From a virus: DNA of 40,088 nucleotides. Both the position numbers and the translations under genes were made by a program. The stretch lies in IMG/VR virus record IMGVR_UViG_3300033571_011401, positions 1 through 40,088 of that record; one strand, 5' to 3'. Under the pieces are notes generated by a model, which worked only from the letters and a program-made list of their open reading frames with translations, searched no databases and was not told the DNA's origin. Each line of letters starts with the position of its first letter. The first letter of the stretch is position 1. Below, one piece after another: positions 7,299 to 35,980 of this stretch.

Positions 7299-10200
7299 TC
7301 ACCTAACGTATGCAGTTCTTACTTCTGAAGCGTATTTTCCATCTGCGTTCAATCTTGCAGCTGTGTAAAGGGTCGTTTCCCAAGTAGATGTTGTTACTTT
7401 ATGTACCACTTTTATTACAGTAAATACAATATCCCAATCTACATTATAATGTTTTGGTATTAAAGACGTTTTTATTACATCACCAAACTTAAATCCATTT
7501 ATGCCGTCTAATGTTACACTAAACTCTATTGGATATATCGCTCTATTAAGCCACGAAGTACCCAATCCTGTTACCGGATCTTGTGGTTCTATTGTCAAAC
7601 GTTTAAGTTTAATTAACGTACCTCTAATTAATTCAGACCAAGCCTCTGTCCATCCAGCCTTGCCTAATACATTTAAATCATTATAAAGTTCATCTGTTAT
7701 TTTCTTTACTTCTGCTTTATAAGTTTCAACATTTTGAAATCCTTTCAAATTTAAAGTTACTTCTAAATTCTGTATTCCTTGGCCCGAACCTCCTCTATCA
7801 ATAGCACCTTGACCTCTAGCAGCAATATAAGCAGCAGCTGCCATTTCTTTTGATGGTTTTGATACTACCTGAACATTTTTTAGCATAGGTCTTACCATAG
7901 TCGCATCAAATTTGAATGGCTCTACTGATCCCTCTTTTATAACATCAGCTGATAGATTAGTATCCTCGATTGAAACAATAGCTCTTGGCCTTTTATTAGA
8001 TATATCATAACTAAATATATCAGCCATCTCTATCCTCGATCCACCCCTGAGTTTTACGTTTTCTAAGGCTTGGTTATATTCGGATCTGGGTACAAGTTTT
8101 TCTGGCTCCTCGAATAATATAGTTGTGAACTGATATATTTCTCCAGTAGAAGTACTTATCATTTTTACGATTTCATCAAAAAATTTAGTTATATTTTTTA
8201 GAGATATGTTTTGACCACCTGTTGCTAAGAAAGAGTCATATGTACGTTTAACAAAATCAACTCCAACCAATATTTGACCTATATTAATCACATTATCTTT
8301 TATTATAGGTGTTCGTTTACCATTTTTATCAGGAGCGGATTGAAATAATCTAAGTACCTGATTTCCTCCAGTACCATCTTCTCTCCATGAACCTTCTTTA
8401 TTAAATGGACAAAACTCCCCATATTGTCCCATTATTATGTCTGGAAAAAATACATCTATTGGATAAGCAGACCTAACATATTTATTATATTCTGCCTCAT
8501 TATTAAAAGCTTGTATTCTAAATAAGTTAGTGGAGAACTTATTATTAGTATCGTTTTCGTATCTTTCTATTAATTTATTTGCAAATTCTACTAAAGATCC
8601 CAATCTAACATACCAAAATGTTTTTGGAACTGAGTTAGCTTTAACTTCAGATTCATTTGTAGCCGTTATTGGTTCTTCAGTTGAAGCAGTATCGGTTGGA
8701 TTTTCTGTTTCTGGTTGGTTATCTTGTGCATCTTTACCTGCTTCATTTAAAGTATCATCATATTGTTTTTTAGCCTCATCATATACATTCCCATTATCTT
8801 TTTGCTCTTTACTTACCGAATCTTCTCTTGAAGGTCTAACGTTACTACCAACACCTACCTTAATTTGAATTTGTGCTGGAACTATGTCCACTAATGTTGA
8901 AGTGCCAGTTTTAAATCTTTTATTATCAACCTGTAGGTAGTACGTTTTTACACCCTCACTTTTTGGTTTAAATACAGTTTCTATGTAAGCACCTTTTTGT
9001 CTGTCTTTGCCTAAAATGCTATCTGTTGTAAGCAATTTAGGCTTTTCAAATTCATCGTTTCCACCAAAAATTTTCGCATTATCATATCCGTTGTATAGCC
9101 CGTCATTCGCTGAAAAACCGAACCATCTATTCATTCTTAGCCTATATGTTTCACCGACTTTATATGTATAAGCGTTTATTCCATTTTCATTGTTAAATGT
9201 AACTGGCGAATAATTACCATCAGCTCCCAATATATCAAGTCTTGTATCTCCAAAATCAACACGTTGTTGTGCATTAAAAAATGGATCTACATTCATATCT
9301 ATTACGTTTCTTTCACCATCTACACCACTTCTTTTTTGCTTTGCCTTAGCTCGTACATTAATATACCTAACTAATTTAGTTTTTGCTTTATTTTCATATT
9401 GACCAGTAAATCTTCCACCTGGCTGTATCATCTTACCTGTTTTTGGATCCTTTAAGGGTACAGAATATTCCGATGTTGATACAGTTGTTGGTTGGTATTC
9501 AACTAATACAACTTTAAGTGTTGCCTTATATTCACCGACATTATTGTTATTTGCACCACCAGAAACTACAGATCTATTAGGTTTCCATGTAATCCTAATT
9601 CTATCTCTATTTGGTACATTAGGTCTTGGATCTTTTAATTCCCACCTATCTGATTCACCATCATTGTCTAAATCTATTGGGTTTACCAATTTTTTAGTAT
9701 TATTTTCTATATCAATAAAAAACGAATAAGGATCCTGTCCCCATCTATCATTTGGATCGAAGTCTTGAAAAACAACTAATTGCTCATTATTAGCTAATAT
9801 CCCAAAGTCAAGTGTTTTAGATAATCCCGTATTAGCATCAAGATATTCTATTTCACCTAAATCAACATCTATATCGTCTCGCCACGTATTCACATCATTT
9901 AAAAGAGCTTCTAATACTGAGCCACCACTAATGTATGGTGTTATCACCCCGGCTTTCACATACGGATTATTATAGAATTCTTTTATAATTTCCCATTTAT
10001 CTCTCCACCCACCACTATTCCATCTACTATTTGGATCTGAAAATTCTCTACCACCACTCTGATTCCAAATATTATCGAAAAACTGCTGTCCTTCTTTTTT
10101 AATTTTTTCTACAAGTTCTTCTTCAGTCTCACCTTGTTGTTCAGCTTCCCCATATGGTGTGCCACCACCTTCCCAATTACCAGCATCATAGTCATAATTA

Positions 10201-11051
10201 TTAATTACTATATTTTGTACTTCCTCAAATTCCGAGGTTAACATACCAATTCCATAGTAATCTAAGAGTTTTTCTGTTGTTTGCTCTTTGGGATAATAAG
10301 CTATTTGACCACTTTCAAGTGAAGCGGTTTGTATGGACAAATCTTTATTTATAACCGTTAGTAGATTTAAACCTTTTAACTCAGAATTCCAACCGTCAAC
10401 CATGACAATATCACTCTGATCGGATGGTAAAACACTTTGGTCTCCTGATAATCCCAAAGCTATTGTTGTTGCCGATACTATTTCTACATCAGCTGCTATA
10501 GATAGATTTGGTTGAACTGTCCAATTAAACCCATATATTATTCCTTTAAATTCTAATTTATTAACCCAAGGATTTTCAGCATAAACACTCCAACCGAATG
10601 ACAATTGAACTTCACGTCCTGGTGTGAATAATGCCCCTTGTAATTCTTCCAACTCAAATCCATCTATTGTTAAATCTGGAAAGTATGTAAAACTAAATTT
10701 ACCTTTTAACAAAGAACCACGTTGTCCCATATTAGATATTTCTACACCGGTCAATAACGGTATTTTTGGTACATTCCTATCCTTTGTGTATAAAATTAAA
10801 TCACCTTGTTCATCCGAATTTCTCCCATCCAATTGTTCTTTCGAAAATCCCAATCTTACATTCGGAAAATCTACGGAAACAACATGAGCCCAAGGCATTT
10901 TTTGATATGGCCATTCTATACTTTTTGTGTTTGCACTTCGGAAATCTGAAGCAATAAAAGCTGCTCGCATTTCCAACTCAGCCCTAACATCGGGGTGTAC
11001 ATCCAAATAAAACGGATTTATGTAACGTCCTAACGTATCGTAATACGGCAT
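7299..11051 (-). CDS. Large baseplate hub-like structural protein
   Basis: 1250 residues. The first ~230 residues (VEISNMGQRGSLLKGKFSF, LQGALFTPGREVQLSFGW, GIIYGFNWTVQPNLSIAADV) look like the tail-tube-like beta domain of hub proteins (T4 gp27, P2 gpD group). The middle has beta-rich inserts and a polar, disordered linker near 735-805 (many Glu, Asn, Thr, Ser). The C-terminal ~400 residues again look hub-like and end with VIKVVHKVTTSTWETTLYTAARL, a strand pattern common to hub C-termini. By position (after the gp53-like gene) it would sit at the baseplate centre under the tube. It starts two bases after the previous stop, with AGGAG nine bases upstream. The CDS is certain; the exact T4 equivalent is not. 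Confidence 0.75.
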   Translation of the reverse strand: MPYYDTLGRYINPFYLDVHPDVRAELEMRAAFIASDFRSANTKSIEWPYQKMPWAHVVSVDFPNVRLGFSKEQLDGRNSDEQGDLILYTKDRNVPKIPLLTGVEISNMGQRGSLLKGKFSFTYFPDLTIDGFELEELQGALFTPGREVQLSFGWSVYAENPWVNKLEFKGIIYGFNWTVQPNLSIAADVEIVSATTIALGLSGDQSVLPSDQSDIVMVDGWNSELKGLNLLTVINKDLSIQTASLESGQIAYYPKEQTTEKLLDYYGIGMLTSEFEEVQNIVINNYDYDAGNWEGGGTPYGEAEQQGETEEELVEKIKKEGQQFFDNIWNQSGGREFSDPNSRWNSGGWRDKWEIIKEFYNNPYVKAGVITPYISGGSVLEALLNDVNTWRDDIDVDLGEIEYLDANTGLSKTLDFGILANNEQLVVFQDFDPNDRWGQDPYSFFIDIENNTKKLVNPIDLDNDGESDRWELKDPRPNVPNRDRIRITWKPNRSVVSGGANNNNVGEYKATLKVVLVEYQPTTVSTSEYSVPLKDPKTGKMIQPGGRFTGQYENKAKTKLVRYINVRAKAKQKRSGVDGERNVIDMNVDPFFNAQQRVDFGDTRLDILGADGNYSPVTFNNENGINAYTYKVGETYRLRMNRWFGFSANDGLYNGYDNAKIFGGNDEFEKPKLLTTDSILGKDRQKGAYIETVFKPKSEGVKTYYLQVDNKRFKTGTSTLVDIVPAQIQIKVGVGSNVRPSREDSVSKEQKDNGNVYDEAKKQYDDTLNEAGKDAQDNQPETENPTDTASTEEPITATNESEVKANSVPKTFWYVRLGSLVEFANKLIERYENDTNNKFSTNLFRIQAFNNEAEYNKYVRSAYPIDVFFPDIIMGQYGEFCPFNKEGSWREDGTGGNQVLRLFQSAPDKNGKRTPIIKDNVINIGQILVGVDFVKRTYDSFLATGGQNISLKNITKFFDEIVKMISTSTGEIYQFTTILFEEPEKLVPRSEYNQALENVKLRGGSRIEMADIFSYDISNKRPRAIVSIEDTNLSADVIKEGSVEPFKFDATMVRPMLKNVQVVSKPSKEMAAAAYIAARGQGAIDRGGSGQGIQNLEVTLNLKGFQNVETYKAEVKKITDELYNDLNVLGKAGWTEAWSELIRGTLIKLKRLTIEPQDPVTGLGTSWLNRAIYPIEFSVTLDGINGFKFGDVIKTSLIPKHYNVDWDIVFTVIKVVHKVTTSTWETTLYTAARLNADGKYASEVRTAYVR

Positions 11052-11053
11052 TA

Positions 11054-11383
11054 TTATCTACTCCTATTGAACTCTGTCAATCGTTCACTTACACCGACTA
11101 AGGTTTCATACGGTATGTATAATAATTTTCCAGGAGGTATATTCATAGATCCCTTTCCTAAATCATTCGCTCTTGCAATTACAAACCATAACCTTTCGTC
11201 ACCATAAAACTCTTTTGCTAATATGTCTAATCTATCACCGTCTTGTGATATTATACGGGTATCATTTCCTGTAAAAAAATCTGGATACATTACGGTTGTT
11301 AATCGTCTAACAGTACCTTCTTTTCCTGTGGAATCTATCTTTTTAGCACCCGTCATTATCATAGCATCTTGATAGCGTCTCAT
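11054..11383 (-). CDS. 53: LysM-domain baseplate wedge protein, gp53-like
   Basis: 109 residues. The core (about 43-92) is a LysM-like fold: DGDRLDILAKEFYGDERLWF, VIARANDLGKGSMNIPPGKL, LYIPYE. T4 gp53 and P2 gpX are baseplate proteins built on this domain, where it works as a structural contact. The gene lies between the giant baseplate protein and the hub, the place expected for a wedge component. The start ATG at 11383 has AAGGAAATAGAT upstream. A near-match to the late motif (CATATTTAAT) lies about 19 bases upstream in the 40-base gap. A free peptidoglycan-binding role is less likely because there is no signal peptide or enzyme domain. Confidence 0.8.
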   Translation of the reverse strand: MRRYQDAMIMTGAKKIDSTGKEGTVRRLTTVMYPDFFTGNDTRIISQDGDRLDILAKEFYGDERLWFVIARANDLGKGSMNIPPGKLLYIPYETLVGVSERLTEFNRSR

Positions 11384-11423: not shown

Positions 11424-14400
11424 TTATTCGTTTGGATTCAATATGTAAGTGTAATCATCTAAACCATCGGAATTATAACCTTTATCGTTTTTATTGGATG
11501 GACGACCACTCCATTTTGAATTATAAGATCTACTTTTTACACCAAGTGATGCATCTCTATCTTTACGGCGTTGCCAAACATCTATAGGATCATTGTTGGG
11601 TCTTAATCTAGGTATAATTCCATATGCGTTGGTGGCCTGTATATGAGCAATCTCATAAGTTTGTTTAGCATCTTTTAGTGGTGTAAACCAAGCTTTCCAT
11701 AGTGGCTGTTTAACTGAATCTGCTAAAAGTGTTGGAGCTTTCATTCCAGCACTTATGGGTTTAGGCCAATATTTATAATCACTATTATCTGGTTGTTGAA
11801 CAATATAATAGTCAGCCCAAGACTCTCTAGTAGTTTTAGTTCCCTCAACATCTGGCGTTAAATTTAATTTAGTATAAGCATTGAATGTTGTTTTTTGATC
11901 CAAATTTGTTGGTATGCTAAACTTATATGATGTTTTATCGAAATTTGGTTCGTATCCTCTTGGCCATCCTGTATAGGATTCTCCTACGTTCTTACCATTC
12001 TCTTCTACTAAAGCTGTTCCAGTAAAGTAATGTGGACCAACTCTCCAAAACTTAGTACCATCCTTTCTCCAACAAGTTGCTGTCACAGGACATTGTTTTG
12101 GTGGACATTTCTTTGGCGGTTCACACCCAATGCTTTCGCCCGATAATGGAGTTATCTCTACACGTCTATTCTCTTGACTAGGCCATGTAGCATTACGGCC
12201 CTTACCCCTTTTATCAATTGCTGTTTTTTCATCACCAAATCCTTGACCATCTATAACTAATCTATTAGGATCTATTCCAAATTCTTCTATAAGAAGATTT
12301 GCAACTGTAGTTGCTCTTCCCCAAGACAAATATATGTTATATTGTGGATTATTTCTTTCTTTTGAGCAGTAACCAGTAACCTTAACTTTCAAGTCAGGAC
12401 AGCGTTTTAACCACTCAACATATGTTCGTATAGCAGTTCTTGAAGGTGGAGTTATTTCTCTATCTTCATCAAAACAGAAATCTATCCTACAAACACATGG
12501 AGGAATTATAATTGGTGTTGTTGTTGGCACCGTTGGTGTAGGTGGTGGTGTAACAGTTGGCGGTGGTGTTGTTGGTGGTGGTGTACCAGTTGGCGGTGGT
12601 GTTGTTGGTGGTGGTGTACCAGTTGGCGGTGGTGTTGTTGGTGGTGGTGTTGTTGGTGGTGCATCAGTTGGTGGTTCATCAATTGGTGGTTGTGATTCTT
12701 TTGTAACTTCAGGTGGTGGTGGAACAACACCACAAAGCAAAGCGTTCATAGGGTGATTCATCGGCAAATCATCGTGAGTTCTAAAATAATTTACCACATC
12801 ACCACTCATTGGCAATAGACCCGATTCAAAACCAGATGGGTTTCTATCATCAAATAATGAGTAGAATACACAGTCCCATTGAGGTCTGTATATGTTAAAT
12901 GTTACAAATGTACATTGAACTATAATTGTCTTTGGCAATTCCAAAGCACCCGGCCTTGATAGTTCACCAACAGAAATTTGAGTTCCATCAGGTGTAGTTA
13001 CTTTTTGCGTATCTGTTAAGTCCAAATCAGCAGCTAACTTAGCAGTTTCCCATGTTGTTTGTGTATTATCAAATGTATAATTTAATGTACTTATAAATCC
13101 TGGGAATTTTCTGTATAGATTACCAATGTTCAATCTACATATTGGTGCCTTCATAAAACCTGGATCTATGTAATCGGGTGAAGTCCATGATGCTAACATG
13201 TTTAATTTACGCCATGTAGCCTTCAATTCATCTCTACTACCAATGTGAATAGTAAATCCAAATGATATTTCTCGTTCATACCCATCATACGAATAAACTG
13301 GGTCGGCTCTTCCTATGTATTTTATTGGAGTCCAAGTTGGTTTATGGTTATCAACTATTGTATCTAAATATGCCCTAAACACTAAAGCTTCAGTTGGTCT
13401 ATATGCTGTTCCTTGAAGATCCACTCCTGAGAAATAAAACTGTATGGAATCCTGTGCAGATAATAAATGATCCTTTGAATCATTAAATCTATCGTGTTCA
13501 TACACGGTGTTTAAATTTAGATCATATTCTTGACGTTTCCAATCTATAATGTTTATTCTATCACCATGAAACCCATTCCAAAAATTCCTATCTAACGGTA
13601 AATTGTTAGACTTATCGTTTAGCGTTATTACTTCATCTTTTATGGTTGGATAAGCACCATATCTTCTATTAGCTAATCTGTAAGTATCAGCTTTACTTCT
13701 AGACTTATCTTCAGGTTTATAGGAATCTTTTACATTTTTAGCTAATCCAGATGTGTACTTGATATTTGATATAAATGGAAATGCCTTTATAAATCCACGT
13801 TTTCCTGGATTACCAAATCCAGCACTGTACTGACCTAAATTTTCTATATGTAATTTGTCATAGTCAATTGTATCGGGTGAGTGCGAAAATCTGCTATATT
13901 TTTCTATATTTAAAAGTGTTCTAAAGTCTGATGGGTCTGTGTCTTTAGGTTGATGACCCAATCCTAACTGTGGGTAATCTAATGTTGTAAAGTCATCGGA
14001 TGTATCTAATTCCTGTGAATATAAATTGTTAGATCTATCTATATTTGGACCTAATGCCATCTTAGGATTGGCTTCACGATTAATCTTATCGGCCGTCATA
14101 GCTTCTAATCGTTCCCAATCAGACGGATATTTGAATTCAAATGGACTTAATTTTTTAATTCTATTCTTAGTATCGGTTCCAATGAACTCGTCATCTAAAT
14201 CGGTTTCTATTCCATCTGGAGAAAGGTGTTGTTGTCCAGATACTTCATTTGGGAAACGAGGTCCACCAATTTTTACATATGACGTGCTTTGCATACCCAT
14301 GCCGTTTGTCACGCCAAATATCTGACCGTTTGATGTTTCTAATTGAGTTAGATCAGACGATTCAACCGTTGATACCGCCTTTACTTGTGCAGCCCTTATA

Positions 14401-17400
14401 CCTAATTTAGAAGCAGCTAATACCAATCCCTTGAACGTACTATCATTTTGAGAGTAATCATTTTTTAATTTTTGAGCATATGTTATTTTACCATCTCGTT
14501 GGTCTTTATATTCACCATATTTTATTAAATCTAATAGAGATTGTGCATTTTGTATAGATGACGCATCTTTAGCTGTTTCACTGTTTATAGCCCTATATCT
14601 ATCAGTTTCAAACGGGAACAAAAACTTAAATGGTTGGATTTTTTGTAGTAGAATTTTTGTTTTTGAATTTATACGAATATTATTAAAATCCGCATATTTC
14701 GATGTTACATCTTGCCAATATGGTCTAACTCCTAATAATTTATCATTAACAGTTGATGCTAATAATAAACCAAAAGCATTACTCAATCTACCACGTTCTA
14801 ATATTAAAAAATCGCCATAGTTGTCTATGGTTATCGATGTATCTTGATTTAAAATAGATCCTTTAAAAAACATCGAATCAGCTGCCAAACCTATTAGATC
14901 CTTTCTTGGCATTATATTCGTACTATTGACAGAACGAGCTCTTTCTTTTACAGGTGCTTCTTTAAAATCAAATGTTTTTAATTCTAATATTCTACGTTTA
15001 TCATATTTGTTTAATGGTATTTTAAAATCTTCAGGTTTAACCAAATGAGGACCAAATTCCAAATATGGACTAAAGCTTCCACTTTGCCCCAATGTTGAAC
15101 CCAATATTATACCAAATACTTCTCCCCCATATTTAGTATATTCACCAGTCTCACTATTAAATAATCTATCAAAATACGTTTGTTCAAATTCAGGGCCTCT
15201 GAAAAATACTTCTTCCGCTATACTCTCGTTATATTCTCTGAATGGAATCCACCCAGAATTCATAGCAGTAAATCTTTCAGTAACCGTTGGCTTTTTAAAC
15301 TCAAATACTTGAGACCCCTTTATTCTGTCTTGAGTTATTAATTGAAATTTTATATTTTTATCGTCAAATAAATTTTTGCTATTTTCTGACCAAGTTGGGA
15401 CAAATGATTGTGGTTTAGATATACTAGCAGCACTTAGTATTAGCCCGTACATATCACCCTGAAATTCTTCCATCTCACTAAACAACATTGATCTATATGT
15501 ATTCGGTTGATTTGTACCCCTATCATATTTTGCAGAGAAAAATACTTCCCTATCAAATCCCAACCCTATACTTATTTTATCCGGAAAATAACCAGTAGTA
15601 TTTACTATTTTAAACGGATGTTTTGCACGATTTATAGTTGTACCAAAAAATCCCAATAATGAGTTTGGTCCACCAAATCCAGAAGAAATTCTGTTTATTT
15701 CTAAATCTGTATCTTTTTGTGGTATTCTATTTTCACGAATAGTGTCATATGAGTTTGGTAACAATTCTTTTACCAACCCTATGAGTCTATTATAATTATT
15801 TTTTGGATTAACGTCTAAGTCATCAAAATAATTGTAATCATCTAAATTTAAGGCACGTTCTATAGATACACTTTCATATCTACCAGCGACACCATCCATC
15901 AGTATACCATGACGAGTAAATCTGAGTCCTAATACACTTCTTCCAGTTATATTAGCAGGAACTGATAGGGGATTGTAGACTTGAGTAGGAACTCTACCTA
16001 ATGTTAACAGAGTCTCTATAGGATTTCTTCTTGTTGCTATGTCTACGTTTGGATTCATAGCTTGGAGTCCAGCTTGTTTTATGTTCCAAAGTATTCCTCG
16101 TCCCGATAATAGAAACTTTCCAATACGTTTTGTATCTAAAACTGTCCTTACCGTATTAGCAATAACACCACCACGAACCAATCCGTCATCGAATTTTGAT
16201 ATTTTTAAGAAGTCTGGTCCTTTTAATGATCCATCGACAAATGGCTGTCCTATGAATATATCATCATTATACGCTTCTAAACTTAGTGAGTATTTACTGT
16301 GCTGATTATCTATTAATCTGTTGTTACCATTAGACCAACTTTCCATGTTACCATCAACAACACTTGGTCTAACATCAACACCCCCACCTGTAGTGTATCT
16401 TTTTGTAAAGTTTGGTGCAGCTGGATTTATACGAACACGATTAGTAGCGATGTTTAAATTTAATTTCTGTATTGTTACCGCTGGAATCTGTATGTCTAAT
16501 GTTGATCTGAATCCAGATATTGTTTTACCACTAAAAGTTAATGGTGCAAATTGTTCTAAGTCACGGGTTTGAAGTGGCTGAGCTATTTGTCTTATAGTTG
16601 ATAATGCAAATCTCTGTAGTCTTTGTGGAAATCCTGGAATTCTTAGTAAGTTCGGATTGAATCTAGGTGTTATTATAGGATAAGCAGTCCCATCGAATTG
16701 AGACATGTTTACCATAAATCCGAATCTTGTTGTTTGATTGAATCCAAAGAATCTAGTTGTTTGAATTGAATATGGATCAAAACCATCCCAATCAAATTGA
16801 GTTGCACCTGCATTCAAAAAGTTTACAGTCGTTCCCAATGTTGGATTGAAACCAGCTGCTACATTATAAGCTGTATTTCTGCCGCCTAAATCCGCAAACG
16901 CATGGAATCCTCTTGTAGTACTTATATTATTTGGATCAAAATAATTTACCGTTGGAGCTCCAGACCTTAATCCAGTCCAATCGAATCTTGATACGCCAGC
17001 CCGTAATGCCGATACATTACCAACCTGTATTGTTGCATACGATGTTGGTTCTCTTTCAACAGCGAATGTGTGGAAACCTCGTGTTGTTGAACCACCCGCT
17101 ATTGGCCAATTGGGGAAGAAATTCACTGCCGGAGCTGTGTTTCTTGTCCCTGACCAATGTAAATCTAAACCACTACCAAAAAATACAGGTAATGTTCTTG
17201 CTCCAGTAGAAGTACCTTGTGTAACAAATGCTGTAGGTTCACCTGTTGATGCAAATGTATGAAATCCACGTGTACCATTATTACGTGTTCTGAACGGTGC
17301 TGATAAATCAAAGTAGTTTACTGTTGGAGCAGCTGTTCTGAACCCATCCCAGTCAAAGAAAGAAGCAAATCTATCTAATATTTCCACCAATCCTGTTTGT

Positions 17401-20400
17401 ATGGTATTGTATGATGTTTGTTCTTTCTCTCTAGAAAATGCATGAAATCCTCTTCTAGTAGAAGTATTTGGGAAGAAATCTACAGTACGTCTTGTAGCAA
17501 AACTTCTTGGTCCATCCCAATCGAAACGAGTAGCAGTTGGACGTAATATCAATGCACTGCCAACTAATTGAGTTTGGTATGATGTTGGTTCCCGTTCAAC
17601 AGCAAATGTATGAAATCCACGAGTAGTTCTTATATTATTTTGGTCTAACCAATTTACAGCTGGAGCTGCGTTTCTTGCTCCTGACCAATGTAAATCTATA
17701 CCAGGACCAAAAAATACGGGTAATGTTCTTGAACTCGGTGTTGCAGCTATGGTTCTAAATGCAGTTGGTTCTAAAGGCTGTGCAAATGCATGAAATCCTC
17801 GTCTACCATTATTACGAGTTCTAAACGGCCCTGATAAATCAAAATAATTTACTACTTGAAATGCTACATTCGCTCTTGGACCAGTCCAAGGACCAGAAGT
17901 AAGGCTAGTTGTTCTTGTATTTAGTATCAATACATTTCCAATTGCCTGTGTTTGGTATGAGGTTGCTTCTCGCTCAACAGCAAATGTATGGAATCCTCTG
18001 AAAGTCCATTGGTTTCCAAAATCCATATAATTTACAGCTGGTGCATTTACCAACGTACCATCCCAATCAAATCGGGTAGCGCCCAATGGACCTGTTGTAA
18101 GTGTAACGGCTGGACCAAATCGTGTTACTATTTGGTTGTTAGCAGTTGTTTGATATGATGTTGGTTCTCTTTCAATAGCAAATGTATGAAATCCTCTCCA
18201 AGTACTAAACGGTGCTAATAAATCAAAAAAGTTAACCGCTGGAGCCGCTGCTCTAAATCCATCCCAATCCAATTGAGTTGGTCCAAGTGGACCGCCTATT
18301 AATGCTACGGGAGGACCTCCTGCTAAAACTAATTGTCCAATTGCAGTTGTTCTATATGCTGTTGGTTCAAAAGGACCCGAAAGGGCAAAAGTATGAAATC
18401 CTCTCCAAGTACTAAAAGGTGCAGTTAAATCAAAAAAGTTAACTGCTGGAGCATTTACTCTAAATCCATCCCAATCCAATCTACTTGGACCAGTAGGACC
18501 CGGTAAAAGTATTACAGGAGGACCAAACGATGATATTAATTGACCATTAGCTGTTGTAACATACGATGTTGGTTCAAACGGACCTGAAAGAGTAAATGTA
18601 TGAAATCCTCTCCAGGTACTAAACGGTGCTGATAAATCAAAAAAGTTAACAGCTGGCGCAGCTGCTCTCAATCCATCCCAATCAAATCGAGTAGCACCTA
18701 ACGGACCAGGAGTAAGTGTTACTGGAGGTCCACCTTGTAGAACCAATTGATTGTTTGCTGTTGTTTGATACGAAGTTGGTTCGAGTTCAAATGCAAAAGT
18801 ATGAAAACCTCTCCAAGTTCTTTGAGCAACTAAATCAAAAAAGTTAACTGCTGGAGCGGCTGCTCTAAATCCATTCCAATCAAATTGTGTTGAACCGAAT
18901 GTCAATATTACTGGAGGTCCACCTTGTAGAACTAATCTACCATTTGCAGTTGTAGCATATGAAGTAGGTTCCTTTGTAAATGCAAAAGTATGAAAACCTC
19001 TCCAAGTTTGAATTGTATTAACATCAAAATAGTTTACCGATGGTGCATTTCTTCTAACACCGTTCCAATCAAATCGAGTAGCACCAAAAGTAAGTGTTAC
19101 AGGACGACTGCCGGGAAATATTACTTGACCGTTTGCAGTTGTAGCATACGAAGTTGGTTCACGTTCAAATGCAAACGTATGGAAACCTCTCCAAGTTTGA
19201 ATGGTATTAGTATCGAAATAATTTACAGATGGTGCGTTACCTCTTATACCATTCCAATCAAATTGAGATGCATTAGCTCTTAAAGTTACAGCGTTACTAT
19301 ATGCTGATAATCCTGCTAATACGGGGGTTGTTGCATATGATGTTGGTTCTTTTGTAAATGCAAATTTGTGGAAACCACGTACAGTACTTTGGTTAGTAAA
19401 ATCGAAGTAGTTTACTGTTGGTGCCGCTATTCTTAATCCATCCCAATCGAATCGTGAGGAATCTGTTTTATATTTTGTATCTTCCCTTTCAAATGCAAAT
19501 GTATGAAATCCCTGTATTGTATTTCTGTTGTTTCTATCAAAATAATTTACAGATGGTGCATTTACACTCAGTCCATCCCAATCGAAATCCGAAGAATCTA
19601 CTTTGTAACGTGTTCTCTCACGAGTCAATGCAAATGTATGAAAACCTTCGGTGGTATTCTTATTATTTATATCTAAGTAGTTTACCGATGGTGCATTTCT
19701 ACGAAGTCCTTCCCAATCAAAATCAGAAGCATCTGTTTTATATTTTGTTGTTTCCCCTGGTTGAGCAAACGCATGGAATCCATCACGAGTATATTTATTG
19801 GTTATATCAAAATAATTAGCTTCTACTATTGCATCATATCCCAATGTAGAACTACTTGTTCTATATTCAGTTCTTAATGGTTCTGCGTTATTAGTAAATC
19901 CTGAGGCGTTATCATCGGGAAACTGATTTAATTGTTGTCCAAACTTATTAGATAGATTACTATTGCTATCAGTCTCATGCCTTCCACTTGGATTTGTTTG
20001 GATAGATCCATCTAAATTTAAATCACTCAATCCGAATATACGAGCTATTCTTGATGCTGAATTGTATTTTATTGGTGCTCCATTTATGTCTAACTTAGTG
20101 CTATTTAATATGGTATTAGCATCATTGTTTACCGATAACCTAAAGGTTTCTGGATTATTATCTATATTAGGTGACTCAGTTTCTCTATCCTTCGTCTGTC
20201 TCGGTATTGTTATAGGTATGAGTGGAACTTTTATATTATTTATAGCTTCCGAAGGATCTTTTATTATAAATGGTGCTTGTCCAGCCTTTGGCAATTCTTG
20301 AGGTTTACGTTCTATGTTTACGTCAGGTATTCTTATGTTTCCAGTCTGATTATCACGCTTTATAATATCTACATTAGATTCTGTTATGTTGGTTTGAGAA

Positions 20401-20834
20401 ACATTCGTTTCTATACGTGATAATTGAGATACTACATCTGTTACTGAAGTTTTTCCAAATGTACTTTTGTTATAATCTTTACTTTGTGGAGATAGTTGAG
20501 ATACCGAATTTACTAATATATTTTCAGTTCTTGGTTTTTGAATATCATCTAATCGAGTTGTATCTAATTTTTTTGTAACATCACTATCCGTTAACGTATT
20601 CTGAATATCATCCAAGCGTGTTGTATCTAGTTTACCAATTAAATCCACTTCTTTTGGTGAATTTATTTTTGGTAAATCTCCACGATTTATAAAAGTATTT
20701 GATATTGGTTGGAACGAGGCAAAATTATCACCATATTGAACTGCTCTTGGAGTCCTTGAATTTGGATCTACGGGAGCGGTTGGTCCTTTCCAACGATATT
20801 TAGATAAGTCCGATTTTAAATCTAAAAGTGACAT
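11424..20834 (-). CDS. Giant multidomain baseplate/tail repeat protein with OmpA-like domain
   Basis: 3136 residues in one open frame. In order: a polar N-terminus (1-340) with a duplicated LDTTRLDDIQ; about 17 tandem units (about 345-1370), each with RGFHTFAxxxEPTSYxTT, FDWDGxR and APxVNYFD; a beta-rich region; a second family of four ~110-170-residue units (about 1750-2250) with FGLxLAS and FxF...ER..A-N motifs; a segment (about 2505-2650, YSYDGYEREISFGFTIHIGS) resembling tube-initiator or gp48/54-type domains; a Pro-Thr linker (about 2700-2780); an OmpA-C-like domain (about 2780-2900); and a C-terminal ~230 residues of unknown fold. It lies between tape measure and gp53-like gene, where T4 has genes 48 and 54. 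No signal peptide. AGGAAAACGA precedes the ATG. Role as a baseplate/tail-tip scaffold that meets the cell wall is inference. Confidence 0.75.
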   Translation of the reverse strand: MSLLDLKSDLSKYRWKGPTAPVDPNSRTPRAVQYGDNFASFQPISNTFINRGDLPKINSPKEVDLIGKLDTTRLDDIQNTLTDSDVTKKLDTTRLDDIQKPRTENILVNSVSQLSPQSKDYNKSTFGKTSVTDVVSQLSRIETNVSQTNITESNVDIIKRDNQTGNIRIPDVNIERKPQELPKAGQAPFIIKDPSEAINNIKVPLIPITIPRQTKDRETESPNIDNNPETFRLSVNNDANTILNSTKLDINGAPIKYNSASRIARIFGLSDLNLDGSIQTNPSGRHETDSNSNLSNKFGQQLNQFPDDNASGFTNNAEPLRTEYRTSSSTLGYDAIVEANYFDITNKYTRDGFHAFAQPGETTKYKTDASDFDWEGLRRNAPSVNYLDINNKNTTEGFHTFALTRERTRYKVDSSDFDWDGLSVNAPSVNYFDRNNRNTIQGFHTFAFEREDTKYKTDSSRFDWDGLRIAAPTVNYFDFTNQSTVRGFHKFAFTKEPTSYATTPVLAGLSAYSNAVTLRANASQFDWNGIRGNAPSVNYFDTNTIQTWRGFHTFAFEREPTSYATTANGQVIFPGSRPVTLTFGATRFDWNGVRRNAPSVNYFDVNTIQTWRGFHTFAFTKEPTSYATTANGRLVLQGGPPVILTFGSTQFDWNGFRAAAPAVNFFDLVAQRTWRGFHTFAFELEPTSYQTTANNQLVLQGGPPVTLTPGPLGATRFDWDGLRAAAPAVNFFDLSAPFSTWRGFHTFTLSGPFEPTSYVTTANGQLISSFGPPVILLPGPTGPSRLDWDGFRVNAPAVNFFDLTAPFSTWRGFHTFALSGPFEPTAYRTTAIGQLVLAGGPPVALIGGPLGPTQLDWDGFRAAAPAVNFFDLLAPFSTWRGFHTFAIEREPTSYQTTANNQIVTRFGPAVTLTTGPLGATRFDWDGTLVNAPAVNYMDFGNQWTFRGFHTFAVEREATSYQTQAIGNVLILNTRTTSLTSGPWTGPRANVAFQVVNYFDLSGPFRTRNNGRRGFHAFAQPLEPTAFRTIAATPSSRTLPVFFGPGIDLHWSGARNAAPAVNWLDQNNIRTTRGFHTFAVEREPTSYQTQLVGSALILRPTATRFDWDGPRSFATRRTVDFFPNTSTRRGFHAFSREKEQTSYNTIQTGLVEILDRFASFFDWDGFRTAAPTVNYFDLSAPFRTRNNGTRGFHTFASTGEPTAFVTQGTSTGARTLPVFFGSGLDLHWSGTRNTAPAVNFFPNWPIAGGSTTRGFHTFAVEREPTSYATIQVGNVSALRAGVSRFDWTGLRSGAPTVNYFDPNNISTTRGFHAFADLGGRNTAYNVAAGFNPTLGTTVNFLNAGATQFDWDGFDPYSIQTTRFFGFNQTTRFGFMVNMSQFDGTAYPIITPRFNPNLLRIPGFPQRLQRFALSTIRQIAQPLQTRDLEQFAPLTFSGKTISGFRSTLDIQIPAVTIQKLNLNIATNRVRINPAAPNFTKRYTTGGGVDVRPSVVDGNMESWSNGNNRLIDNQHSKYSLSLEAYNDDIFIGQPFVDGSLKGPDFLKISKFDDGLVRGGVIANTVRTVLDTKRIGKFLLSGRGILWNIKQAGLQAMNPNVDIATRRNPIETLLTLGRVPTQVYNPLSVPANITGRSVLGLRFTRHGILMDGVAGRYESVSIERALNLDDYNYFDDLDVNPKNNYNRLIGLVKELLPNSYDTIRENRIPQKDTDLEINRISSGFGGPNSLLGFFGTTINRAKHPFKIVNTTGYFPDKISIGLGFDREVFFSAKYDRGTNQPNTYRSMLFSEMEEFQGDMYGLILSAASISKPQSFVPTWSENSKNLFDDKNIKFQLITQDRIKGSQVFEFKKPTVTERFTAMNSGWIPFREYNESIAEEVFFRGPEFEQTYFDRLFNSETGEYTKYGGEVFGIILGSTLGQSGSFSPYLEFGPHLVKPEDFKIPLNKYDKRRILELKTFDFKEAPVKERARSVNSTNIMPRKDLIGLAADSMFFKGSILNQDTSITIDNYGDFLILERGRLSNAFGLLLASTVNDKLLGVRPYWQDVTSKYADFNNIRINSKTKILLQKIQPFKFLFPFETDRYRAINSETAKDASSIQNAQSLLDLIKYGEYKDQRDGKITYAQKLKNDYSQNDSTFKGLVLAASKLGIRAAQVKAVSTVESSDLTQLETSNGQIFGVTNGMGMQSTSYVKIGGPRFPNEVSGQQHLSPDGIETDLDDEFIGTDTKNRIKKLSPFEFKYPSDWERLEAMTADKINREANPKMALGPNIDRSNNLYSQELDTSDDFTTLDYPQLGLGHQPKDTDPSDFRTLLNIEKYSRFSHSPDTIDYDKLHIENLGQYSAGFGNPGKRGFIKAFPFISNIKYTSGLAKNVKDSYKPEDKSRSKADTYRLANRRYGAYPTIKDEVITLNDKSNNLPLDRNFWNGFHGDRINIIDWKRQEYDLNLNTVYEHDRFNDSKDHLLSAQDSIQFYFSGVDLQGTAYRPTEALVFRAYLDTIVDNHKPTWTPIKYIGRADPVYSYDGYEREISFGFTIHIGSRDELKATWRKLNMLASWTSPDYIDPGFMKAPICRLNIGNLYRKFPGFISTLNYTFDNTQTTWETAKLAADLDLTDTQKVTTPDGTQISVGELSRPGALELPKTIIVQCTFVTFNIYRPQWDCVFYSLFDDRNPSGFESGLLPMSGDVVNYFRTHDDLPMNHPMNALLCGVVPPPPEVTKESQPPIDEPPTDAPPTTPPPTTPPPTGTPPPTTPPPTGTPPPTTPPPTVTPPPTPTVPTTTPIIIPPCVCRIDFCFDEDREITPPSRTAIRTYVEWLKRCPDLKVKVTGYCSKERNNPQYNIYLSWGRATTVANLLIEEFGIDPNRLVIDGQGFGDEKTAIDKRGKGRNATWPSQENRRVEITPLSGESIGCEPPKKCPPKQCPVTATCWRKDGTKFWRVGPHYFTGTALVEENGKNVGESYTGWPRGYEPNFDKTSYKFSIPTNLDQKTTFNAYTKLNLTPDVEGTKTTRESWADYYIVQQPDNSDYKYWPKPISAGMKAPTLLADSVKQPLWKAWFTPLKDAKQTYEIAHIQATNAYGIIPRLRPNNDPIDVWQRRKDRDASLGVKSRSYNSKWSGRPSNKNDKGYNSDGLDDYTYILNPNE
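12500..12730 (-). repeat. Pro-Thr linker microsatellite in the giant gene
   Basis: A run of GGTGGTGTT- and GGTGTACCAGTTGGC-like units (plus strand) encodes a proline/threonine linker of PPPTTPPPTGTP type. It joins the tube-like segment to the OmpA-like domain. The units are near-identical at DNA level, so copy number may vary by slippage or be misassembled. Confidence 0.9.
14080..15560 (-). repeat. Four-unit protein repeat family inside the giant gene
   Basis: Residues about 1750-2250. Aligning by eye: GLILSAASIS, GIILGSTLGQ, GLLLASTVND and GLVLAASKLG each precede, by about 45-80 residues, FEFKKPTVTERFTAMN, FDFKEAPVKERARSVN, FKFLFPFETDRYRAIN and FEFKYPSDWERLEAMT. Three units also carry a VFF.G or MFF.G element about 30-50 residues before the first motif. 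Units are diverged at DNA level, so this is an old duplication. Confidence 0.65.
16720..19800 (-). repeat. About 17 tandem GFHTFA/FDWDG units inside the giant gene
   Basis: About 3.1 kb of imperfect tandem repeat. Each unit encodes RGFHTFA, a variable stretch, EPTSYxTT, an optional 15-25-residue insert, FDWDG and APxVNYFD. The N-terminal three units are about 45 residues; later ones are 55-70 because of an inserted Gly-Pro-rich hairpin (GGPPVTLTPGP type). The units around 18200-18950 are the most alike at DNA level, suggesting recent duplication or conversion; units toward 16800 are degenerate. Confidence 0.92.
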
Positions 20835-20877: not shown

Positions 20878-23800
20878 TTACCTTTTTAAAAATCTTCCAG
20901 TACTATTATCAACATTAGCGTTGACATCACTCCGTGCATTCAATGAGACACTGATTTCCTCGATAAATCTTTCACCAAACTTAATTTCAGCCTTTTGAGT
21001 AGACAATGAGCTCAATACTTTTATCATAGTATCTAATTTTTGCTCTATTCTTTCTGTGTTAAGATTTACATTTTGAGTTTGAGGTGCATTACCAAAATTA
21101 CTGTTAGATGTACGAATAGTTGCAAATTTTGGTGGAGGTGGTATGTTTACAACAGGCTTATTGCTTTCTTCACCAAAACCAAAAAATGAAGATACTTTAT
21201 TTAAACCACTCTTAACAAGACTTGTAACACTACCAAAAAGTCCAGTATTTCGTTTTTCTTCCTTCCCTTGCATTTTAAGAGAAACACTATTTAATTTAGA
21301 AACATCTAATTTATTTAAAGCCATGCCAACCGATTCGAGTGATTGTGCCATGTAAAATATTGCATTACTTAATGAAATTACTTTAGTAGCTTCCATTACA
21401 TTTAATATACCAAATAAAGATACTAATTTACTATTACCCCTATCGTCCATTGATCTACTAAATGATTTTACTAAGAAATCCAAGGCTTTTCCGAAATCCC
21501 ATAAGGCATTTATTTTCTTATCGTCCATTTTTTCTAAAGCCTCTGAAACCTCTTTCAGTCCAACTGCCAAGTGTTTCATAGTTCCAGAAAATGCCATTAT
21601 TCTATTCATATTTATTTTTGCTATAAAATCGACTATCTTTTCAAGTGGACTTTGAGTTCCAAATACTCCTAAGAATGTCTCTTTGAAAGACTTCATTAGA
21701 ATACCCTCACCTTTACCCATTTTCTTAAAAAATTCGTCCATAGCATCAGCTGCTTTGTATATCTTACCCCAATCTAAATTTTGAATTATTTCAAAGCTTT
21801 TTGCAGTTTTATGAGCTGCTTCTGCAAACAATTCGGCACTTTTTGCAAAGGCGTATATTGCACCAGCAATAGCATATATTGTTCCAACTACAATAGCAAT
21901 TTCTCCAGCAGCAGCAACCGAACCTTTTAGTGCCTTCATTGCAAACATTATTCCACCTATCATAGCACCAACAATACCCAATCCAATTTGTCCATCGGTT
22001 CCCGCTTTAGCTAATTTTTCAGCTGCATCTGATATTACCCATATTGCACCAGCTAATCCAACTAAACTACCTATTAAACCAGTCTTACCTCTACCAAATA
22101 ACCCTAATATTTTCCATAAAGCTATAAATCCACCAACTACATATACTAATGTTTTATTTTCACTAAAAAATTTCATTAATATTCCACCGAGGTCTTCAAA
22201 AAACCCACCTATATCTCCAGTTAGCAAACTCATAAAAGACAACTTTTTATTGGTTTTATCAACTTCTTCACCCATTTTTTTTACGCCATCCGTTGGAAAT
22301 AAATCTACACCGCCAAATAAACCAGAAATTGCATTTGCAGCCATTTTAATAAGTTCGCCTAAGAATTCACCAAATCCCTTACCTTCGGATGTCATTTGTT
22401 TAAATAAATCAATAATATATCTTAGCCCTTTAAGTGCCCAACGTATACCCGCTGCTAATATATCTGCCATTGGTTTAGCAACCCCATTCAATCCATCAAT
22501 TATATCTCTTATAATTCCAGAATTAATAATTTCAGTCATTATTTGGTGTAAAACATCCAATACTGGTAATGCAGTTTGCATAACCTGTAATTTAATTTTT
22601 GTCATTTGGTCGTCATAACGTTGCATTAAGGTCGCATTTTCTTTTTCCAAAGCTAATTTATTCGCATAATCCGCTTGACCTTGTTTGCCCATTAAAGCTG
22701 CCTGTTTAGCATATTCCCGTAATTCTTTTGCGTTTTTAGCTTCTAATATTGCCGCCTCTTGCATTGAAAGACCTAATTTTTTCATAGCGTCTTTTCTTGT
22801 CAACATGTCTACCAATTTTTCTCTATCCATTCCGAATTGTTTTGCAAAAGCGTCCTGAGCTATTACTCCCCCACGTCTTTTTAATTTTTCAAAATCTGCT
22901 AAAGAACCCATAGATTGATCTAATAGGTCTAATGCCTTTGCTGATTCACCCTCAAAAAATGCCAATCTAATTGCGTCCATGCTTGCAACACGAACTCCAC
23001 TTAGTGATGTCGAAATCATTTCAGCTTCAAGTGAAGCTTCTATGTCCATTAAAAAATCACCTGTGGATTTAAATTGATCCATATCCATTCCCAACTGTTT
23101 TGCTTTATTAGCAAAATGAATCAAATCTTTCAAAGAATCTTTCATGTTTACTTGAATAGATTTTGGAACAGCAGCTAAAGCTTTTAGTGCAGAACGAGAG
23201 TTCATTATACCCTTACTCATCTTATCAACACTCATTACCATTTGATCCATGGTTTTTCCATGAATTACACTCAGTTCAAAGAATTTTTGTGAGTCTTCCG
23301 TTGTCAGTTGAAACTTCTCTCGTAAAATTGTCATAACTTCAACATTCTTCATAGCTTCTTTTGAATCTATTATTCTCATTGGATCTATACCAAAGTCATC
23401 TGAAAGTTGCTTTGTTGTCTCTAAAAACTGCTCCCAATTGACACCAACCAAATTAACTTTCATTGCCATATCAGCAAATTGTTGAGTTACTTTAATAGCT
23501 TCACCACGTGTTACATTAAGTCCAACACCAATTTTTGCAACTACTTCATCTAATTGTAACGCTGCACCGAAGAAGAATTTTATTATTGTAGTTGCAAATG
23601 AAAATACTCCAGATAAAAAATTAAACGTTACTTCAAATGCACCCTTTATTTTATTTTTTAAAGAAACCAATCTGTCTGATATGTTTCTTGTGCTCTTTTC
23701 AGCTTTATCCATTTCCATTTTTTTATGCAGTCCTCCTGCTGGAACAGCGGCAGCTACTCCTGCCATAGCCTTTTGTGTATCTACGGTTGCCTGTTTTGTT

Positions 23801-24660
23801 TTATACATTTCTTGGGATTGTTGAGCTACGGACTTATTTATAGATTTAACACGTTGTAATTGATTTTCATACGACTTTAATACATTTTTTTGCATACCCG
23901 CTCTTTTTTCCCCCATCTTATCAGCATTTAAATCCACCAATGCTATTTGCTGTTTTATGTCTCTCTCAAGTTGATAAAGATCAATCATCTCATATTGTCT
24001 TTGCCCTAAATTATCAATCCCCTCAGCAATTTTTGATTCCATAGAATCCAATTCTTTAGCAATGTTTACCGTACCTTCCATTGTTTTTGAGAAAGCTTCA
24101 TTGACTTTGGTTGATTGAGTGGATCTTATATTAGCATCCTTCATTTCATCAGCAAGTGCCTTAGTATTTGATACCGTCAATCCAATTAGCTTAGATTGAT
24201 TTTGTGTTTCCGCACTCATAGAACGCATAAGTGCTACGGAATTTTCTTGAATGCCCGCTAATTCCTTGTTATAGTCCCTTATAGTTTTGAAACTACTTTC
24301 ATCATCTTTTAGTTTATCAGCCCTATCCTTTTCTATCTTCTCCGTCTTTTTTAAACGTTCAAAATCTTCACGTTTTAATTTTGATAATTTTTGAGAAATT
24401 TCATAATACTCTTTGGCAACTTTTTTTCGTGTCTTTTCTAACTCTACTATTTTATCCATTTCAGCTTTATTAGCCTTATCGTGCCCAGTTATTGTTTTTT
24501 TTATTTGAGCTATTTGAACTAATAATTGTTTTCTCTCTTTTTCCAATTTAGCTATTGAACTAGACACCTGTTCTTCTCCAGTACCCTTTTGTTTTTTTTG
24601 AGGAGTTTTTGGATTGGTAGGATTGGTTGGATTGTTGAGATTGCCTTTTTGTTTAGCCAT
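20878..24660 (-). CDS. Tail tape measure protein
   Basis: 1260 residues. The N-terminal ~330 residues are Lys/Glu-rich coiled coil (SSSIAKLEKERKQLLVQIAQ and on). A hydrophobic segment near 340-370 (FNFLSGVFSFATTIIKFFFG) follows, then helical repeats. A long Gly/Ala-rich hydrophobic block at about 835-970 (VVGGFIALWKILGLF, LVGLAGAIWVISDAAEKLA, IAIVVGTIYAIAGAIYAFA) is typical of tape measures that insert in the membrane. Tape measure length sets tail length; using the usual ~1.5 angstrom per residue, the tail would be about 190 nm. It replaces T4 gp29 in the order, between the gp26/gp51-like pair and the baseplate genes. There is no clear Shine-Dalgarno sequence before ATG 24660. Confidence 0.88.
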   Translation of the reverse strand: MAKQKGNLNNPTNPTNPKTPQKKQKGTGEEQVSSSIAKLEKERKQLLVQIAQIKKTITGHDKANKAEMDKIVELEKTRKKVAKEYYEISQKLSKLKREDFERLKKTEKIEKDRADKLKDDESSFKTIRDYNKELAGIQENSVALMRSMSAETQNQSKLIGLTVSNTKALADEMKDANIRSTQSTKVNEAFSKTMEGTVNIAKELDSMESKIAEGIDNLGQRQYEMIDLYQLERDIKQQIALVDLNADKMGEKRAGMQKNVLKSYENQLQRVKSINKSVAQQSQEMYKTKQATVDTQKAMAGVAAAVPAGGLHKKMEMDKAEKSTRNISDRLVSLKNKIKGAFEVTFNFLSGVFSFATTIIKFFFGAALQLDEVVAKIGVGLNVTRGEAIKVTQQFADMAMKVNLVGVNWEQFLETTKQLSDDFGIDPMRIIDSKEAMKNVEVMTILREKFQLTTEDSQKFFELSVIHGKTMDQMVMSVDKMSKGIMNSRSALKALAAVPKSIQVNMKDSLKDLIHFANKAKQLGMDMDQFKSTGDFLMDIEASLEAEMISTSLSGVRVASMDAIRLAFFEGESAKALDLLDQSMGSLADFEKLKRRGGVIAQDAFAKQFGMDREKLVDMLTRKDAMKKLGLSMQEAAILEAKNAKELREYAKQAALMGKQGQADYANKLALEKENATLMQRYDDQMTKIKLQVMQTALPVLDVLHQIMTEIINSGIIRDIIDGLNGVAKPMADILAAGIRWALKGLRYIIDLFKQMTSEGKGFGEFLGELIKMAANAISGLFGGVDLFPTDGVKKMGEEVDKTNKKLSFMSLLTGDIGGFFEDLGGILMKFFSENKTLVYVVGGFIALWKILGLFGRGKTGLIGSLVGLAGAIWVISDAAEKLAKAGTDGQIGLGIVGAMIGGIMFAMKALKGSVAAAGEIAIVVGTIYAIAGAIYAFAKSAELFAEAAHKTAKSFEIIQNLDWGKIYKAADAMDEFFKKMGKGEGILMKSFKETFLGVFGTQSPLEKIVDFIAKINMNRIMAFSGTMKHLAVGLKEVSEALEKMDDKKINALWDFGKALDFLVKSFSRSMDDRGNSKLVSLFGILNVMEATKVISLSNAIFYMAQSLESVGMALNKLDVSKLNSVSLKMQGKEEKRNTGLFGSVTSLVKSGLNKVSSFFGFGEESNKPVVNIPPPPKFATIRTSNSNFGNAPQTQNVNLNTERIEQKLDTMIKVLSSLSTQKAEIKFGERFIEEISVSLNARSDVNANVDNSTGRFLKR

Positions 24661-26995: not shown

Positions 26996-27484
26996 TTAGT
27001 ATTGTAGAATTGCATAATCGTAGGCTAAAGTGAGAGAAATCTCAACAAACGCATCGTTTGCCCAATCCATCTCACCAAACGTAGTAGCAATAATGAAAGC
27101 ACCCTTTAATGTCCATTCTTCCACTTTATCACCAACAGGACCAAGTAGGTGGAATGTTATATCTTTCTTATAAAAGTCGGAATAACCATCTCTACCCGTA
27201 ACAGATTCGTGTGATAGACGAACCCATTCCATTACGGTTTGAGCACCTGATGGAACTACTGGATCATAAAGCTTAATGGTAACATCCTGCCACTCTCCCT
27301 TTCCTTTTACTTTACGATATACGTTGATGTGATCTAATTTAATTGGGTTAAAGTTGATATTAGGACGACCAGCACCTTTAACTAACCAAGAAGGAACACC
27401 TTCAATATACATAATAAAGCGATTTTGAAGTTTTGGCTCGAAGGGGGTAAAAAATATCTCATTCGAGTTAAGTAATTCAGCCAT
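26996..27484 (-). CDS. 19: Tail tube protein, gp19-like
   Basis: 162 residues, near T4 gp19 (163). QNRFIMYIEGVPSWLVKGAG, INFNPIKLDHINVYRKVKGK, WQDVTIKLYDP and WTLKGAFIIATTFGEMDW follow the tube-protein beta-barrel pattern seen in T4-like and related phages. It forms the inner tube around the tape measure. It follows the sheath gene, as in T4, but is separated from it by a terminator and a late-type motif, so it has its own promoter. TTGGAGACATAA precedes the ATG. Confidence 0.9.
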   Translation of the reverse strand: MAELLNSNEIFFTPFEPKLQNRFIMYIEGVPSWLVKGAGRPNINFNPIKLDHINVYRKVKGKGEWQDVTIKLYDPVVPSGAQTVMEWVRLSHESVTGRDGYSDFYKKDITFHLLGPVGDKVEEWTLKGAFIIATTFGEMDWANDAFVEISLTLAYDYAILQY

Positions 27485-35242: not shown

Positions 35243-35980
35243 TTATTTTATTTCATCAAAATACGATAATATGTCATCAACTATCGGATGACGATGGTTT
35301 GTTTTTAGCTCGTATACACCCAATCCATTTATTTTATCTTTCATGTCATATAGGTGTGGTAATCCAGAATCCTTTTTATTTTTCAAATCTATCTGTGCAG
35401 AATCACCAGTTAACATCATTTTTGAGTTTATACCTAATCGTGAAAGAATCATTTCCATTTGAGCCTTTGTTACATTTTGTGATTCATCCACTATTACACA
35501 AGCATTAACAAATGTTCTACCACGTAAAAAACTTATTGGTGCTATTTCTATCTTATCTTCTGATATTAACTTTTCAATTTTTTCTTTGCTGTAAAGCATA
35601 AACATATTTGCATGAATAGGTGCCAACCAAGGATCCATTTTTTCTTTTATATTTCCTGGAAGAAATCCCAAGTCTTCATTTGATACAGTTGGTCTTGTTA
35701 TTATTATCTTATCGACCTCTCTGTAAAATAAATATTCTAATGCTATTTGTGTTGCCAATAATGTTTTTCCCGAACCAGCCTTTCCTAAAAAAACAGATAT
35801 TGTATCTTGTAAAGCTTTAGTCTTTATATTTTTTTGTTCTTCGTTTAGTGGTAATTGAAACTGTATTTTATTTTTTATGGTTTTTCTACCTTTTTTTATT
35901 CCTGAATTGTTTATACCGAAAACTTCCTCTTCATTGTTATATGCTTTTTGACTGTTATCTTCGTCGTGATTAAAGTCCAT
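35243..35980 (-). CDS. phoH: PhoH-family ATPase
   Basis: 245 residues. Walker A GKAGSGKT (66-73), the TRP..SNEDLGFLPGN segment (95-110), FLRGRTF, Walker B VIVDESQN (162-169) and TGDSAQID (191-198) with a final NHRHPIVDDIL are all diagnostic of PhoH. PhoH proteins are common in marine and T4-like phages; proposed roles are RNA- or phosphate-related ATPase activity, not settled. It lies 8 bases after the GAF-like gene and before the fibre genes. AGGAGTCATT precedes the ATG. Confidence 0.93.
   Translation of the reverse strand: MDFNHDEDNSQKAYNNEEEVFGINNSGIKKGRKTIKNKIQFQLPLNEEQKNIKTKALQDTISVFLGKAGSGKTLLATQIALEYLFYREVDKIIITRPTVSNEDLGFLPGNIKEKMDPWLAPIHANMFMLYSKEKIEKLISEDKIEIAPISFLRGRTFVNACVIVDESQNVTKAQMEMILSRLGINSKMMLTGDSAQIDLKNKKDSGLPHLYDMKDKINGLGVYELKTNHRHPIVDDILSYFDEIK

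Follow-up and report, generated by a model that had tools for sequence, protein, structure and literature searches.

A giant protein of a Far-T4-related phage is probably a tail-tube initiator with stretched arms and an exchangeable C-terminal module

A virus record of 40,088 bases, analysed in full and referred to here as the window, encodes on its minus strand a single intact ORF (11424..20834) for a protein of 3136 residues. Taken as a whole, this protein is probably a tail-tube initiator of the Far-T4 type, in which the chain has acquired stretched arms and a C-terminal module. The 9.4-kb frame takes up 23.5% of the window, as a preliminary description of this DNA had estimated (about 23%). 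Since a second IMG/VR record of 62 kb (L001) has the identical ORF (100% identity), and giants related to it are found in further contigs as well as in the genome deposited for Microcystis phage Mel-JY01, the ORF is no assembly accident. The phage displays traits of Far-T4 phages, namely a T4-type capsid, sheath and tube, and a phoH gene (35243-35980) adjoining the structural genes, the latter being a reported trait of the group (PMC4360716). It appears to be related to the Far-T4 group, judging only from its similarity to Rhodothermus phage RM378 (the founding Far-T4 isolate), Flavobacterium phage immuto and Mel-JY01.

All main genes of the window lie on the minus strand. In transcript order, the tail module comprises the tail sheath (27577..30051), a gp19-like tail tube protein (26996..27484), a sugar-nucleotide dehydratase, a T4 gp26-like baseplate hub protein (PF12322; 24977..25849), a tape-measure-like protein (TMP) of 1260 residues (20878..24660), the giant, a gp53-like LysM wedge protein of 109 residues (11054..11383) and a putative hub protein of 1250 residues (7299..11051). 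The TMP was assigned from its position and from relatives annotated or placed as TMP. The 109-residue protein, a conserved partner gene by synteny, matches the PHROG family "baseplate wedge subunit" (E=2e-9) and, weakly, LysM structures in the PDB. The giant thus has the tape measure upstream and the gp53-like LysM gene downstream, which is the position originally noted for it, and this arrangement is kept across relatives. The dehydratase (PF16363; 25920-26891), which lies within the tail module between the tube and gp26-like genes, has an ORF of equal length at the same site in relative L002 and none in Mel-JY01.

The chain can be divided into eight segments, all encoded on the minus strand. 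The N-terminal segment (residues 1-334; 19833..20834), which starts MSLLDLKSDLSKYR, resembles immuto gp236 and other giants at its beginning and is of low complexity in the remainder. It is followed by a first repeat array (residues about 335-1321; 16872..19832) of 17 units of 44-69 aa with the pattern FDWDG..APxVNYFD..GFHTFA, apparent both as protein units and as tandem repeats in the DNA. The basic unit measures 44-45 aa (about 44 aa in relatives), and many units carry loops of ~18-24 aa. The middle domain (residues 1358-1747; 15594..16763), with the motif RIGKFLxSxxGIxWNxKQxGLQxMNP, is common to all giants and also occurs in several relatives that lack repeats. Next comes a second repeat family (residues about 1758-2270; 14025..15563), composed of four units of about 110-160 aa that match each other within the window with pairwise E values of 8e-9 to 0.08. 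The conserved core, the putative tube initiator, spans residues 2425-2690 (12765..13562) and is connected by a Pro/Thr-rich linker (residues about 2700-2785; 12480..12737), recognised by its composition (zero aromatic residues, 72% PGNSTQ), to an OmpA-family domain (residues about 2786-2897; 12144..12479). The chain ends with a C-terminal extension of 239 aa (residues 2898-3136; 11427..12143), which has no known domain and is shared only with other OmpA-bearing giants. The two repeat families, the Pro-Thr linker and the OmpA-like domain listed in the preliminary description are therefore all present, and the tube-like segment that it placed at 2505-2650 falls within the core.

As for the core, it was identified by alignment, and structural modeling strengthens its assignment. 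An AlphaFold model based on 47 sequences is confident and tube-like, with a pLDDT of 85-92 over about residues 2465-2594. When this model was compared with the PDB using Foldseek, nearly all of the best matches were chains from the baseplate or tube of contractile tails, or of tails related to them, including PVC (6j0n_b, E=2.1e-4), AFP (6rao_G), the baseplates of the Streptomyces, Algoriphagus and Anabaena CIS, R2 pyocin and the "baseplate-initiators" of cyanophage A-1(L), all assigned at the level of the complex rather than from the subunit named for each chain. A similar comparison with the predicted structures in BFVD gave matches that include, with E values from about 1e-5 to 3e-4, several proteins named "Baseplate tail tube cap" and "gp48". 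Whole-model TM-scores are low, at 0.2-0.27 by query; by target, most eCIS chains score 0.43-0.50. Modeling of the repeats together with the middle domain (18 sequences) gave a pLDDT of 37 and no usable model, so that structure prediction succeeded for the core and failed for these segments.

The sequence of the core offers no comparable link. Profile comparison with T4 gp48, gp54 and gp19 gave no signal, Pfam, PHROG and NCBIfam contain no family covering it, and a PDB search using its sequence profile had no match. Consequently, the assignment to the initiator class rests on fold and synteny. A profile match to gp48 or gp54 is not what defines this class, since members such as gp48 and the eCIS initiators are identified from their fold and position. 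In a search specified beforehand, we also looked in the genomes of relatives for separate gp48/gp54 genes and found none: gp48 (phrog_230) was not detected in Mel-JY01, immuto, RM378 or the large contigs, while phrog_45 (gp54/gp19) gave no more than a single weak hit in any genome, in Mel-JY01 at the gp19-like tube gene. The T4 control was positive. This outcome favours the interpretation proposed initially, but the core itself escapes such profiles, and a diverged second initiator may have escaped them too. This leaves one initiator of the class found per genome, which counts against our reading because T4 and eCIS have two.

Comparison with known systems shows what is shared and what is peculiar to the giant. 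T4 gp48/gp54 (tail tube cap/tube initiator) likewise come after the tape measure, and the predicted fold of the core is similar to that of gp48-type proteins. However, these are two proteins of 320-364 aa with no detectable sequence similarity to the core. The eCIS proteins Cis5/Cis7 (of PVC, AFP, AlgoCIS, Anabaena and Streptomyces), whose baseplates yield the best fold matches among solved structures, are about 220-240 aa long and have no arrays. In eCIS, LysM is found within the Cis7 chain, whereas in the giant-bearing phage it is encoded by a separate, adjacent gene. In the Anabaena system, the first two layers of the tube are made of Cis5 and Cis7, and the LysM domain of Cis7 ties them to the baseplate (PMC8894136). 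That the core is a tube initiator of the gp48/gp54/Cis5/Cis7 class, the role initially proposed for the protein, is thus well supported by its modeled fold and gene position, albeit unproven.

We then consider the family. Searches with the core find immuto gp236 (716 aa) and RM378 p067 (458 aa), which have the same core and gene order, but neither a repeat array nor OmpA. They also find WWT39329.1 of Mel-JY01 (2255 aa, "hypothetical protein"), an orthologue at the same locus with an array of 44-aa units, the middle domain and the core, which lacks OmpA, has almost no C-terminal tail and retains a mere remnant of the second repeat family. In IMG/VR, the core search gave 233 matches, of which 80 were kept, comprising short forms (mostly 440-720 aa) without array and giants of 1772-3142 aa with 6-21 units. 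Querying with the middle domain yielded 72 loci, many of which were new. Among them were relatives without repeats, 500-990 aa long, and two giants that have 24 units. Over both searches, short relatives range from 440 to 990 aa, and 36 distinct giants were counted. Since repeat-free relatives possess the middle domain, this domain and the core are old parts to which the array was added. The close relatives (L004, which is Mel-JY01, versus L005 and L006) come, according to their records, from a cyanobacterium, Flavobacterium and Rhodothermus, and scans of bacterial genomes with the core and with the OmpA domain, for a hint of host or donor, gave no match.

The gene order is strikingly stable. 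A TMP gene lies upstream in 34/34 giants and 44/45 short relatives, and a LysM gene downstream in 33/34 and 41/45, respectively. In one giant-bearing record (L011), the ORF neighbouring the giant upstream of 4949 encodes ~387 aa versus >1180 in other giants, which may mean that the tape measure is split or its frame broken, or that an error arose in sequencing. In a 60-row tree, the giants form one clade, on one side of a branch with support 99/97. The giant form is an in-place expansion within an existing initiator family, common to the whole clade including the isolate Mel-JY01. This replaces the preliminary idea of a fusion of separate proteins, the family having short members without array (immuto gp236, RM378 p067 and those of dozens of contigs). 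About 80 phages keep the gene at this site between those for TMP and LysM. Together with the tube-initiator fold, this makes it highly improbable that the protein acts in assembly as a large scaffold or chaperone and is absent from the virion, as its size and repeats might otherwise suggest. Our literature search found no paper on a Far-T4 baseplate, a tandem-repeat tube initiator or Mel-JY01.

The array is translated and under purifying selection. Across five pairs of relatives its omega is 0.10-0.16, similar to that of the middle domain plus core, while the C-terminal tails evolve faster (0.22-0.41), and the units stay in register between related phages. These properties bear on whether the array could serve as an integral fibre or adhesin of the baseplate that points outward and binds receptors. 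Such a role would fit the long repeat array, as well as the OmpA and S74 modules at the C-terminus, both being of types known to take part in contact with surfaces. However, the low omega and in-register units are unlike a diversifying receptor binder, the array matches no fibre, spike or lectin family (S74 being present only in relatives L019/L020), and the window has a separate collagen-like fibre gene at 33132-34862. We therefore find a fibre or adhesin unlikely. The collagen-like gene, of tail-fibre type with GTSGTSG tandem repeats, lies between the connector and capsid genes.

The array also shows a relation to the tape measure. Among the 36 giants, repeat number rises with TMP length (rho 0.66; independent contrasts r=0.48, p=0.003), as does array length (independent contrasts r=0.46, p=0.005), while hub length, used as a control in the contrasts, does not (r=-0.03). 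These analyses are exploratory, the test having been devised after the data were seen. In all giants with a complete TMP gene, the TMP has 1184-1503 aa, versus about 490-660 in most short forms. Moreover, LR756508 combines a 1604-aa TMP with an acidic array that occupies the same place but is unrelated. In this 484-kb phage, the initiator relative (L161:7753-12498) has ~1580 aa, its N-terminal 900 aa consisting of dozens of very acidic repeats with units of ~15 aa, unrelated to the 44-aa array.

These relations, and the fact that the array is conserved rather than fast-evolving, would suit N-terminal arms that run alongside the tape measure within the tube lumen and form a second ruler or plug component expelled before the DNA. 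Yet repeat number does not scale proportionally with TMP length, since 6-24 repeats are found over 1184-1503 aa, with 24 repeats accompanying a TMP of 1306 aa and 20 accompanying TMPs of 1352-1503 aa. Short and intermediate forms show no relation with TMP length (r=0.01), and the relation across the whole family is weak (r=0.21, p=0.07). An array acting as an exact second ruler was rejected on these grounds. Given also that the correlation test was post hoc and that six additional chains would crowd the lumen, we consider lumenal arms quite improbable. A little less probable again is the fuller version, in which lumenal arms and tape measure are two co-scaling proteins that set or fill tail length, one of them anchored in the first ring, with the acidic array of the megaphage being convergent. 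Our preference is for arms outside the tube.

As for the C-terminal module, the OmpA-family domain is recognised by Pfam (PF00691, residues 2792-2879, E=3e-12, 47.2 bits versus a cut-off of 27.2), by sequence matches in the PDB and by alignment. OmpA-type domains are the kind that bacteria use to hold their cell wall. The domain of the giant shares PF00691 and the LSxxRA motif with Pal, OmpA and T6SS TagL, the Arg of the motif being invariant in six OmpA-bearing members, but it differs in sitting on a phage tail initiator and in lacking the diaminopimelate-contacting Asp. At this position, which we infer from the alignment and from A. baumannii OmpA, there is a Ser in five members, including the phage of the window, and an Asn in L012. 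The loss of this Asp counts against binding of the domain to the cell wall, leaving such binding plausible. In the megaphage Lak-C1 of Prevotella (L160:6666-8264), an OmpA-family domain ends a protein of solute-binding type that is unrelated to the tail. The OmpA domain of Lak phages was therefore rejected as a parallel.

The OmpA-bearing members of the 60-row tree (L001, L002, L010, L011 and L012) form one subclade (100/100), and L092/L093 likewise carry the domain. OmpA is thus a late addition, specific to one subclade. The hub measures 1180-1330 aa in three OmpA-bearing phages versus 650-810 in other giants, with an insert of ~500 aa relative to Mel-JY01 in the window phage (at about 8682-10211), which indicates that both central baseplate proteins were enlarged together. 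In another giant (L019:4169-11278, the same in L020), the place of OmpA is taken by a Peptidase_S74 domain (E=3.6e-14), an intramolecular chaperone normally found on tail spikes, where it usually matures trimeric spikes. Since most other giants examined have only a disordered-looking C-terminal tail, the C-terminus is an exchangeable module.

The S74 domain of L019 raises the question of whether the ORF encodes a precursor, from which a protease would split arms, core and C-terminal module so that no 3136-aa chain is present in the virion. S74 domains are self-cleaving in known cases, linkers divide the chain, and T4-like heads use a maturation protease. On the other hand, no protease domain was identified in the chain of the window, and we regard processing of this sort as improbable.

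A structural scenario can be proposed for the initiator with outer arms. The core, by its fold and synteny, would form the first hexameric ring or rings of the tail tube atop the hub, and the neighbouring LysM protein may be the partner that locks this ring to the wedges. Tandem duplication would have stretched the chain ahead of the core in place, producing arms that contain the constrained repeats. In the most likely arrangement, six of these arms would extend from the ring and add a further structural layer or skirt to the end of the tail. Beyond the core, the presumably flexible Pro/Thr linker would carry the OmpA-family domain. Because the leading tube rings are driven through the outer membrane into the periplasm on contraction, this domain could be brought to the peptidoglycan and might hold or steer the tube tip there. 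One difficulty for this scenario is mechanical: the tube would have to drag six long arms on its outside across the outer membrane, which would be awkward.

Tube initiators are usually pictured as small, conserved parts of the contractile machinery. In this lineage, a tube initiator appears to have gained up to about 2,500 extra residues, which make up its arms and an exchangeable module at the C-terminus, be it OmpA, S74 or a disordered tail. This vastly enlarged form spans a whole clade of aquatic T4-like phages, in which the sole annotated member calls the protein "hypothetical." The core family could serve as a new marker for the tails of Far-T4 phages. The giants would also provide a system for asking what the first ring of a contractile tube can carry, whether a tail tip may grip peptidoglycan directly and whether initiator arms may join in the control of tail length.
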